Origin: Mucor racemosus
Taxonomy: Eukaryota > Mucoromycota > Mucoromycetes > Mucorales > Mucoraceae
Reading direction: 5' to 3'
DNA length: 64,000 nt
Assembly (NCBI GenBank): GCA_027405735.1
Contig: JAPEHQ010000004.1
Location: 682,001 to 746,000 of the forward strand
This document shows positions 46,663-57,504 of this stretch, piece by piece. Below the pieces are notes generated by a model that saw nothing but the letters and a program-made list of their open reading frames with translations, was not told the DNA's origin and did not search any database. The position numbers and the translations under genes are program-made. The stretch's first letter is position 1; every line of letters starts with the position of its first letter.

Positions 46663-47550
46663 ATGGTGAATAAAACCGCTTCTTGGGTTGTCCGCGAGTA
46701 CAAACTTGTCATGGTTGGAGGTGGAGGTAAGAGAAAAAAAAATGCAATAGAAAAAAATGTAAAACATGGCCAGTGATGTATGATATATTGACAAATTCTG
46801 CTTTTTAAGGTGTGGGAAAGTCTGCTTTAACTATTCAATTCATTCAATCTCATTTTGTTGATGAATATGATCCTACCATTGAAGGTTTGTGTTGCTTTTT
46901 GACCGGGAAAACAATTGATTGCTGACTCGCGGGATTTATACATAGATTCTTATAGAAAGCAGTGTGTTATTGATGAAGAAACTGCATTATTGGATGTATT
47001 GGATACAGCAGGACAAGAAGAATATAGGTAACTTTATTGCTTTAGATGTATCATGAACAAACAAAAAAAGCTTAATCAAGAAACTAGTGCTATGCGTGAA
47101 CAATATATGAGAAACGGTGAAGGGTTTTTACTAGTTTATTCGATAACTTCTCGAATGTCATTTGAAGAAATTGAAACATTTCATCAACAAATTTGCCGAG
47201 TCAAAGATAGAGATTACTTCCCTATGGTATTGGTTGCAAACAAGTGTGATCTTGAATCAGATCGTCAAGTATCCAGTGAAGAAGGTCGAGATTTAGCAAA
47301 GCAATATGGATGTCATTTTGTAGAAACATCAGCTAAAGTCCGTATTAATGTCGACGATGCATTCTATGAAGTTGTCCGGGATATTAGACGATATAACAAA
47401 GAACAAGAATTAAATAGTAATCGCCATACATCTGGTTATGGTGCTGGAGGAGGAGGTATTGGTACCGGTGGTGCTGGCGGTGGATTCGATAGATTTGGTG
47501 TAAATGATTCAAATGATAGTGCTACATCAAAATGTTGTATATTGATGTAA
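46663..47550 (+). CDS. Ras small GTPase
   Basis: Four exons, 46663-46726, 46810-46884, 46946-47027 and 47088-47550, give 227 residues. All G motifs are present: GGGGVGKS (P-loop), YDPTIEDSYRKQ (switch I/effector), [18 protein letters not shown] (switch II), NKCD and ETSAK. It is Ras proper rather than Rho or Rab. The C-terminus ends CCILM: the last four residues form a CaaX box for farnesylation, and the Cys before them could be palmitoylated, so plasma-membrane attachment is expected. A Gly-rich hypervariable linker precedes it. The third intron ends at 47087 because the earlier AG at 47080 gives a stop. It converges on the RasGEF gene. Confidence 0.96.
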
Positions 47551-48096
47551 AATGTTTATTATTATATTATTGTTTTTTTTTATTGCTCTTGATTCCCCCC
47601 CCCCCTTTCTCTCTCCTGTTGTACTGTACCTGTCATTTTACAAACATACAAATACACATGTACACACATATACACAAACACCCCTTACATTTAGCTTGTT
47701 TTTTTTTCTTGCTTATATTTTGTAAAAATTCAAACCATCATCTTGTTTTCGAGAGTGATGTCTTTCACTTTATGAAGCATTGTTATAAATGTGTTTTTAA
47801 GCTGTTTATTTACAGGTCTTTTAAATAGCATGAATTTTATCTTGAGATACATACGATTTTATTACATATCCTGAAAAAAAAGTCATCAGTGCAGAAAAAG
47901 ATACAAGTGGTCCTACTTTTTTTCATAGAACTTTATTTATGTACAAATAAATAACAAAAACAGAAAATATAAGAATAAAGAACATCATCCACTGATTGTT
48001 TTTTACTAGTATTTTATAGCATGAAATAGTTCATTTAAATCTGTAAAAATCCTTTATAATCTAGCATTTCCATCAAAATGACGCATTTTTCTTATT
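47551..48096. other. Convergent 3' regions of Ras and RasGEF
   Basis: About 545 bp with T-rich and C-rich runs (47572-47605). No gene. The terminators of both genes are presumably here. Confidence 0.45.
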
Positions 48097-54900: not shown

Positions 54901-57504
54901 TATATATATATTATATATAAAAGTAAAAGATTTATACATTTTTAAACTGTTTAAAAACACAGAATTATGCATAAACAAATTAAGCTGCACCTCGCACCAC
55001 ACAGGTACATTATGCGTACTTCATGTGTCATTATTCGAAGATGGAATACTTCATTTACAAACCGAGAAGGTATGTAAAATATTCTTAGATTTTTGATACA
55101 ACAAAAACATTAACGCAAAACCATCTTATTTATAGGATGAAAACTCCTTTTTTCATCGTCCCATTAAACTTTCTACATTATCGCCTCAGGATATATATCC
55201 ATTCTCGGATTCCATTGATCATATGCGTTATTGTATTGTAATTAGACCTTTGCCTTCTGAAACCTATCATCTCATGACATGTAGTAAAGTTCAAAGAGAT
55301 GCATGGCTTGTGCGCCTCAAGACAAGTTGTACCAATTATGCAATGATGTCTATTCCAAACTCTGTATCTACTTGTCGCAATATATTTAGCTTGACTGTAA
55401 GAATTTCTGAAGCTCGCAAGTTTCAAGTGAGCCACAAGGATTCTATTCATAGCGAATTGTATTGCGATATCGTCATTGATAACGAGATAAGAGGCTTAAC
55501 TGGGTCGCTTAAAAAGACATCGACATTATTTTGGAGAGAAGAGTTCTTGTTTAGTGATATCTCAAGAATGCGACATGGTGTTACTATAACTATATACTCT
55601 AGAAGCAGTAAAAATGATAGAGAAACCATCTATGGTAAGCAAAGATTTATTTCGAAATCTAACCCTAACCCTAACCCCAATCCTAATTTGCATTTCAGGT
55701 ACCGTATTTTTACCTGTTTCCCAAATTGATCCAAGCAATTCGTTACATGAGGAATGGTATGAAGTTAGAAAGGAAAGTCGAAATAGAGCATTTGCATCTT
55801 TGACTAGTCTAGGATCAAGCCATGGATCTATGGGACAGTTACGAGTGGGTTTGCTATTAGAAGAGCATCAGGTCTTTTCATTAGATGTATATCAACCGCT
55901 CATGGATGTTCTCACTGAATTTCGTCATGATATTATCTATGATATGGCTAGAAAAACCTCGGATGTACAAGGATTAGCCAGAAATTTACTAAGAATTTAT
56001 GAAGGAATGGGATTAACATTAACTTGGATTAAATCATTGATTGATTATGAGGTCTCCTCTTTAAGTTCAGGTATAATACTATTTTATATTTTGTATGCTG
56101 TGACACGAGACTAAAAAATATATAATAGATGATGTTAATATTCTATTCAGGTACAAGAAACTAACCTACTATACAAAAAAAAAATATGTACTAAATTTTG
56201 GGATATAGAGGGAATTCTTTCTTTACCAAAGTAATCGATAACTATATGAAGATGAGCGGGAAAGAATTCTTGGAAGAAGCACTTCAATTTACAATTCAAA
56301 AGATTTGCAAGTTTAGTCTCCATATAGAGGTAAATGACATATTCTCTAAATAGAAATAGAACTGTCAACCTAATCAAAATTTAGGTTGAATCATCTCGTT
56401 TATCAAACAGTACAACTGAAAATACAATGGCAAATTGTTCGGAGCTATTTAGTCATGTTAGATCAATTTGGAGTGGAATACAAAGAGCCAAGACTAAATG
56501 TCCAATTGAATTAAGAAGAATATTTGGACATTTACAATCTGCTATCGTAAAGAAGTTTGATTTAGGAAAAGAAACATTAGATAGACATCACCAAGTAGCA
56601 AGGTATACTTGTGTTAGGTATATAAAACAAGGTTTATAGCGTATGTATGTAATATTAAGATCATGTTTTTTTAGTGGATTTATATTTTTAAGATGGATTT
56701 GCCCTGCCATCATATCACCTAAACAATTTGGACTTGTCCAAGGTATTTCATATTATGATAATTTCTATAATCATGCTAACTTTTGTTGTAGATCATCCTG
56801 ATACAAAAACTTGTCGTACACTTACATTAATAGCTAAATGTTTAATGACATTAGCAAGCCATAGTACAATTGAACAAAATGCCAAAGAACCCTGGATGGT
56901 TCGACTAAATGAATTTGTTCAAGTAAGGTTCTACAAGAGCACGTTTTTTCATATTATTTATTTTACATTATTTCCTTGTAGAACAATACACATCATTTTA
57001 TGAACTTTATTAACTTTGTATCTGTAAGTTTTTTGAGAGAAAAAACGAGTATATATGCATAACTAATATATTTTTCAGGTGGATGATGAGGAAATTGAGC
57101 ACGATCTCGTTGATAGAAATGAAGGCATTTTACTACTAAGACATAAACAAGAAGAAATCATTGCACCTTATTTTATTGATTTGGCATTAGAGCTATCTCA
57201 ATTTACAACATGGTGTTCACAAGAATGTAATGTTATCAATACAGTTACTCGTACTTGTAAATCAATTGTTGGGTTACAAAGAAATCCTAGTAGAAGAACG
57301 CATCAACAATTAAAGGAAATTTCTGCTGCAACAAATGCTGTGGTTAATGCAGCTAATAATCATGTTATAAATGCAGAAGAAATTATGCTACAGCAACAAA
57401 GAAGAAAGACAAGACCTCAACCATGGCAATATGGTGATGATTATGTGGGTAAAGATAATGAAGTATTAAATATCGCTGTACGCTCTCCATCAGTAGCAGA
57501 ATAG
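51994..57504 (+). CDS. PH-PH-C2-RasGAP, Ras GTPase-activating protein
   Basis: Twenty-two proposed exons join in frame into 1373 residues. Exon ends: 52519, 52600-52761, 52819-52862, 52937-53047, 53116-53229, 53306-53521, 53580-53747, 53856-54098, 54152-54255, 54316-54466, 54515-54661, 54722-54893, 55005-55069, 55136-55634, 55699-56070, 56129-56150, 56209-56329, 56385-56602, 56675-56742, 56792-56922, 56982-57023, 57079-57504. After a Ser/Asp-rich start comes a PH domain (KGYLLLKKKP...), a second PH-like segment (LCVLHVSLFEDGILHLQ), a C2 domain (SLTVRISEARKFQ) and the GAP domain. The GAP domain has ILFRGNSFFTK, with the arginine finger near residue 1039, and FLRWICPAIISP near 1150. It should speed GTP hydrolysis by Ras. 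C2-GAP order recalls yeast Bud2. The substrate is unproven. Confidence 0.92.
55659..55690 (+). repeat. Interstitial telomere-like repeat in a RasGAP intron
   Basis: CTAACCCTAACCCTAACCCC followed by degenerate CAATCCTAAT, i.e. the fungal telomere repeat (TTAGGG on the other strand) for about three units, lying just upstream of the 3' splice site at 55698. Confidence 0.75.

Follow-up and report, generated by a model that had tools for sequence, protein, structure and literature searches.

A stretch of 64,000 base pairs (bp) from the fungus Mucor racemosus (contig JAPEHQ010000004.1, positions 682,001 to 746,000 of the forward strand), hereafter referred to in full as the window, carries side by side the genes of a Ras GTPase, of a guanine nucleotide exchange factor (GEF) and of a GTPase-activating protein (GAP) for Ras-family GTPases. 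The neighbourhood that they form is real and in part conserved among Mucorales. The three gene models were spliced by eye and by script and supported by Pfam, and each gene is complete. The Ras gene is located at 46663-47550 on the plus strand (exons 46663-46726, 46810-46884, 46946-47027 and 47088-47550) and encodes a 227-residue protein. The GEF gene occupies 48097-51214 on the minus strand, read from the start codon at 51214 to the stop at 48097 (exons 51116-51214, 50614-51046, 49065-50557 and 48097-49002), and encodes a CDC25-domain protein of 976 residues without a recognisable REM domain. The Bud2-like GAP gene, at 51994-57504 on the plus strand, consists of 22 exons and encodes 1373 residues; the exons 56129-56150 and 56209-56329 (56129-56329, plus strand) encode the arginine-finger motif ILFRGNSFFTK, as placed by the splice model and by alignment. 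All 27 introns (3 + 3 + 21 for Ras, GEF and GAP) have GT-AG borders. Ras and GEF are tail-to-tail, with a convergent gap of 546 bp (47551-48096) between their stop codons, and GEF and GAP are head-to-head across a divergent region of 779 bp (51215-51993) between their start codons, which is a candidate shared promoter of the two. The original prediction had placed the three genes correctly, leaving their strands unstated, and its claim of adjacency holds in the spliced models and the lists of open reading frames (ORFs): no recognised gene appears between them in these lists, the short ORFs there not having been scanned against Pfam. Rfam gave no match between the three genes either. Judged by their sequences, all three are intact with catalytic signatures kept, and their top database matches come mostly from Mucor and Parasitella.

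Pairs of orthologues are linked in related fungi. Two proteins were taken to share a contig when they came from the same species and the longest contig holding each had an identical exact length, contig names not being shown, and orthology was read from trees. Among the matches listed, GEF and GAP share a contig in five Mucorales species, namely Mucor velutinosus (contig of 756,636), Parasitella (68,991), Benjaminiella (950,324), Spinellus (490,675) and Apophysomyces sp. BC1015 (56,970), the last with consecutive locus tags (DFQ30_002005/002006). Ras and GEF share one in five genera, represented by M. ambiguus (contig of 81,900), Parasitella (167,199), Cokeromyces (1,050,289), Pilaira (411,634) and Helicostylum (2,241,229). 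The linked GEFs and that of the window fall into one clade of 27 tips (support 0.993) in a tree of 55 hand-chosen proteins plus the query, taken from 120 listed of 230 matches, orthologues beyond these being missed; the GEFs of Spinellus and Apophysomyces share no more than 46 and 55% identity with the window’s, over 68-69% of the searched region. The linked Ras genes likewise form one clade of 13 tips (support 0.997) in a tree of 68 hand-chosen proteins plus the query, drawn with the same restriction from 120 listed of 7979 matches, and the 12 Mucorales GAPs constitute one clade with support 1.0. Five of these GAPs share a contig with an orthologous GEF and six (M. plumbeus, M. circinelloides, M. 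atramentarius, R. microsporus, Sporodiniella and Phycomyces) have no clade GEF listed; the remaining one, from R. stolonifer (GEF P0066, GAP P0008), lies on a contig of different size from its GEF and was set aside as uninformative, the GEF contig being just 4,214 bp long. The Ras clade holds ten named entries, the query and two metagenomic tips being omitted from this count. An orthologous GEF is on the same contig in five, M. mucedo/saturninus is unassignable, and Gilbertella, Choanephora and Blakeslea have no clade GEF listed. Backusella, where a GEF (P0076) shares a contig with Ras, was rejected as a case of linkage, as this GEF falls outside the clade, among paralogues. Linked pairs, as sought by the synteny search proposed in the original prediction, are thus present in relatives, and since these pairs are conserved, the cluster is a stronger observation than that prediction could know. 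Its idea of co-inheritance stands for GEF with GAP and for Ras with GEF; the three members are not together everywhere.

Small GTPase genes and their regulators are usually scattered in fungi. In the M. racemosus genome (53.2 Mb, 54 contigs), six-frame searches, in which only the best candidates were scored and loci were merged by hand, yielded about 22 RasGEF, 10 RasGAP, 66 Ras-superfamily and 11 Ras-subfamily loci; some GEF loci may be counted twice (C1 and C54 look like copies, and two C17 matches are 3 kb apart). Among the loci counted, the window is the only site where a RasGAP or a Ras-subfamily gene is at most 100 kb away from a RasGEF; once all Ras-superfamily genes are included, further pairs turn up at distances of 37 kb and more. 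Under random placement of 12,000-15,000 assumed genes, an adjacent triple would be expected 6e-5 to 1e-4 times, a figure obtained post hoc, as many functional triads could have drawn a reader’s attention. The clustering is more than chance, though tested after the fact. The listings returned by our searches of open literature contained no report of a RasGEF/RasGAP/Ras gene cluster in fungi.

The clustered Ras matches the Pfam Ras family with 208 bits and has all the canonical marks of the Ras subfamily, that is the P-loop, the effector switch I, Gln61 and a CaaX box (CILM), in addition to a Gly-rich hypervariable region. A PDB search returned R-Ras2 as the best match, followed by K-Ras and others. 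Four canonical Ras loci were identified in the genome (C4, C1, C12 and C11); a review counts three Ras genes in M. racemosus (PMC8146680). The switch II of the clustered Ras is identical to that of two paralogues, contiguously on C1 and across an exon boundary on C12, and because of this identity neither the GEF nor the GAP is likely to be exclusive to the clustered Ras. Elsewhere in the genome, two Rap/Rsr1-like GTPases (L031 and L032) have Thr replacing Gln61, and a Ral-type GTPase with a KAD switch I is present at G000 C11:929608-930251 (L034). Ral and potential positive regulators have also been described in Rhizopus oryzae, in its genome paper (PMC2699053).

The catalytic domain of the GEF (Pfam RasGEF, 147.5 bits, residues 374-576) belongs to the CDC25-homology RasGEFs. 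The REM domain (RasGEF_N, PF00618) gave no match in this protein and 14 matches elsewhere in the genome, and Pfam finds neither a PH nor a Ras-association domain. A profile built from 44 members of the GEF family was closest to RalGPS1 among solved structures (123.6 bits), ahead of CDC25 (99.6), RGL2 (88.0), RasGRF1 (80.6) and SOS1 (approximately 41). AlphaFold2 models the M. ambiguus orthologue (P0053) with a confident N-terminal three-helix domain ahead of the catalytic domain, which is followed by a long C-terminal tail of low confidence and without predicted structure. For the three-helix domain, a profile of 15 sequences gave no meaningful PDB match and an MIT match had E = 0.067 in 1 of the 15; most rows of the structure comparison covered residues 361-704 and so barely touched this domain. 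NCBIfam returned nothing for either GEF or GAP. The C-terminal part of the GEF also holds a polyglutamine run of 14 residues (48379-48420, minus strand) and a second, shorter one near 48790-48816; in the orthologues from M. ambiguus and M. velutinosus the polyglutamine is shorter. The family to which the GEF belongs (P0053-P0172) is multi-copy in Mucoromycota, a small N-terminal helical domain occurs in many of its members, and REM gave no match near four of its loci (G000 C4, C12:936, C3:2484 and C11:1759).

In the GAP, Pfam recognises a PH domain (34.1 bits, residues 487-583), a C2 domain (28.9 bits, 826-929) and a RasGAP domain (104.8 bits, 1017-1197). The PH-PH-C2-RasGAP order read in the original prediction is confirmed for one PH, the C2 and the RasGAP; the second PH corresponds to a PH-like pattern in an orthologue model. 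This AlphaFold2 model, of the GAP from Rhizopus microsporus (P0007), predicts long N-terminal helices, a PH domain, PH-like strands with a helix, a C2 and a GAP domain. Foldseek matched it to the BAR-PH structures of APPL and ACAP (E from 8e-8 to 5e-5) with TM-scores of 0.07-0.08 of the query and a root-mean-square deviation of 33-37, the aligned region not being displayed; a repeat fold search contained no BAR-PH row, its list being filled by C2 and GAP matches. The arginine finger and the FLR motif align with those of p120GAP and SynGAP, the signature of an active RasGAP is present, and the FRGN and FLR columns are conserved in at least 90% of 26 sequences. This GAP type is single-copy in the genome, the next genomic matches being 26-33% identical. 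In ascomycete relatives the first PH, the C2 and the GAP matches occur in the same order in 12 of 12, the first PH often weak and the second weaker or missing. Yeast Bud2 is described with two PH-like domains, a C2 and a RasGAP (PMC5091641), and the four RasGAPs described in the rice blast fungus are homologous to GapA/Gap1, IQG1, BUD2 and IRA (PMC6325701). From its sequence, the cluster GAP looks Bud2-like. One of its introns (55635-55698) contains a telomere-like CCCTAA run at 55663-55674, with two perfect copies and near repeats around, which is the only run in the window with at least two perfect copies.

Two further features lie outside the three genes. Tail-to-tail with the GAP gene, an open frame on the minus strand (57706-59124) encodes repeats rich in Lys/His/Thr and in Asp/Ser/Asn, together with a single hydrophobic stretch; it resembles a wall-sensor-like membrane protein and has no Pfam match. 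At 27448-27642, also on the minus strand, there is a match to Afu_182 (69.5 bits, above the Rfam gathering score), a small RNA reported from Aspergillus fumigatus.

On balance, we lean towards regarding the locus as a conserved, possibly co-regulated signalling neighbourhood established on an older head-to-head GEF-GAP pair, and not as a proven Ras circuit. The conserved core would be the REM-less CDC25-domain GEF together with the Bud2-like GAP (BAR-like region, PH, C2 and RasGAP), and a Ras paralogue appears to be additionally linked to the GEF in one Ras clade, comprising Mucor and allied genera. The genes are likely kept together by shared regulation of the divergent pair via the 779-bp region, by which the regulator that switches Ras-family GTPases on and the one that switches them off would be produced together. 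The GAP would most likely work on membranes, by means of its BAR-like region and its PH and C2 domains. Its family points to Rsr1/Rap-type GTPases as substrates, possibly Ras too, and the GEF may act on Ras or Ral, so the neighbouring Ras is a possible, unproven substrate. The original prediction had seen here a complete switch, which is not supported, as the GAP looks Bud2-like, yeast Bud2 acting in vitro on Rsr1 and not on Ras2, and the GEF lacks REM and is nearest to RalGPS1 by profile. Specificity for Rap/Rsr1, named there as the outcome that would speak against the switch, is matched for the GAP by inference from its family. A closed Ras-only circuit is doubtful, considering the Bud2-like GAP, the GEF profile leaning to RalGPS1, the Ral and Rap/Rsr1 genes and the Ras paralogues with the same switch II.

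Several observations weigh against the neighbourhood reading. Among the matches listed, no relative carries the complete trio on a single contig, such a trio being seen only in the window, and the two linked pairs of Parasitella come from two assemblies. A shared contig is not adjacency, consecutive locus tags being seen only in Apophysomyces BC1015, and conservation of this kind may be ordinary for Mucorales gene order. Ten other Mucorales with a clade GEF (Radiomyces, Syncephalastrum, Pilobolus, Benjaminiella, Spinellus, Zychaea, Fennellomyces, Dichotomocladium, Mycotypha and Apophysomyces ossiformis) have their listed Ras genes on other contigs. These Ras genes sit outside the linked Ras clade, whose orthologue may be missing from the ten species or from their listed matches. 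Linkage of GEF with GAP accordingly has the wider reach, and that of Ras with GEF is observed in one clade. Regarding the proteins, the second PH was not found by Pfam in the cluster GAP, two Mucorales orthologues or three ascomycete relatives, and membership of the Bud2 family is putative, judged from layout and by elimination. The closest solved sequence to the GAP is human p120GAP, a Ras GAP (131.5 bits). A search with the single GEF sequence scores CDC25 (68.8 bits) and RalGPS1 (67.6 bits) alike, and in the reciprocal search the best match of RalGPS1 was another, REM-containing locus (short PDB segments; 10 of about 22 GEF loci), for which identification of the GEF as RalGPS by reciprocal best match was dropped. 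The main doubt concerns the substrate class of the GAP.

The competing explanations overlap in part, and the likelihoods attached to them are not meant to sum to one. The foremost among them, which we nonetheless consider unlikely, is ordinary microsynteny, whereby three family members became adjacent by chance and are linked still, with no functional reason, since gene order changes slowly. It would fit a Ras linkage limited to one Ras clade and a cluster picked post hoc from a long window. It has to face the random expectation for an adjacent triple, at about 1e-4 or less, and a GEF-GAP linkage persisting in Spinellus and Apophysomyces despite the divergence of their GEFs.

Ranked just after it, and again unlikely, is the proposal of the original prediction, a dedicated cassette in which GEF and GAP switch the adjoining Ras on and off, the three genes being co-expressed. 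The unique adjacency of the trio among the loci counted, the two sets of linked pairs, the canonical switch regions of Ras and the intact catalytic residues of a GAP nearest to p120GAP by sequence all speak in its favour. Yeast Bud2 is a GAP for Rsr1/Bud1 in vitro with none of this activity for Ras2 (PMC3338500), which argues against it, as do the RalGPS1-like profile of the GEF family, the two further Ras paralogues with the same switch II and the members found without each other in other Mucorales, among the matches listed. Somewhat less credible in our view is the fullest form of such a linked Mucorales cassette, in which a one-clade Ras paralogue, a REM-less GEF and a putative curvature-sensing BAR-PH-C2 GAP, with a bidirectional GEF/GAP promoter, would put the entire switching cycle of one Ras under the control of one locus. 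The least probable alternative, a cross-talk module overlapping the neighbourhood reading as a special case of it, would place a GEF of Ral type and a GAP of Rsr1/Rap type beside Ras and tune Ras, Ral and Rsr1 signalling together in polarised growth, which accords with the resemblance of the GEF profile to RalGPS1 and RGL2, the Bud2-like GAP, the Ral and two Rap/Rsr1-like genes of the genome and the Ral and potential positive regulators reported for Rhizopus (PMC2699053), and sits less well with the outcome of the reciprocal search and with a GEF in which Pfam finds neither a RalGPS-type C-terminal PH nor a Ras-association domain.

A clustered locus with pairs conserved across genera gives experimenters a direct way to ask which GEF and GAP belong to which Ras-family GTPase in Mucorales. 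Both regulator families are large in these fungi, as seen in the roughly 22 GEF and 10 GAP loci of this genome. It would also test whether GTPase-regulator pairs can be predicted from gene order.

Parallels to known systems exist for each regulator. RalGPS proteins carry a C-terminal PH domain. The cluster GEF resembles RalGPS1, a REM-less CDC25 GEF for Ral and its best profile match, in having a CDC25 domain without REM; it differs in showing no C-terminal PH (Pfam) and, as modelled for its orthologue, in its three-helix N-terminus and long disordered tail. With fungal CDC25 (Ras1 GEF, 7nzz) it shares the CDC25 catalytic fold, and unlike this protein and the SOS/CDC25-type GEFs in general, it has no REM that we could find. 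Human p120GAP (RASA1) and SynGAP, the best solved-structure matches of the cluster GAP, likewise have a C2 beside the RasGAP, the arginine finger and the FLR motif, whereas no SH2 or SH3 was found by Pfam in the cluster GAP, which has a PH and a predicted BAR-like N-terminus instead. Phycomyces MadC is a Ras GAP, its binding to Ras being reported from two-hybrid tests, with at least three homologues in such fungi (PMC5359613). It is, like the cluster GAP, a RasGAP of a Mucoromycotina fungus. As a guess from the homologue count, three mutually similar GAP loci elsewhere in the genome (L017-L019) may be the counterparts of MadC. A parallel to the whole set is the Bud2/Bud5/Rsr1 module, a GTPase-GEF-GAP set for polarity in yeast, whose genes are scattered. 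S. cerevisiae Bud2 shares with the cluster GAP the succession of PH, C2 and RasGAP as well as the FLR motif, a second PH in the cluster GAP being only probable. Unlike in the yeast module, the GTPase beside the cluster GAP is a canonical Ras and not an Rsr1/Rap, and unlike Bud2, the Mucorales GAP is predicted to have a long-helix, BAR-like region at its N-terminus.

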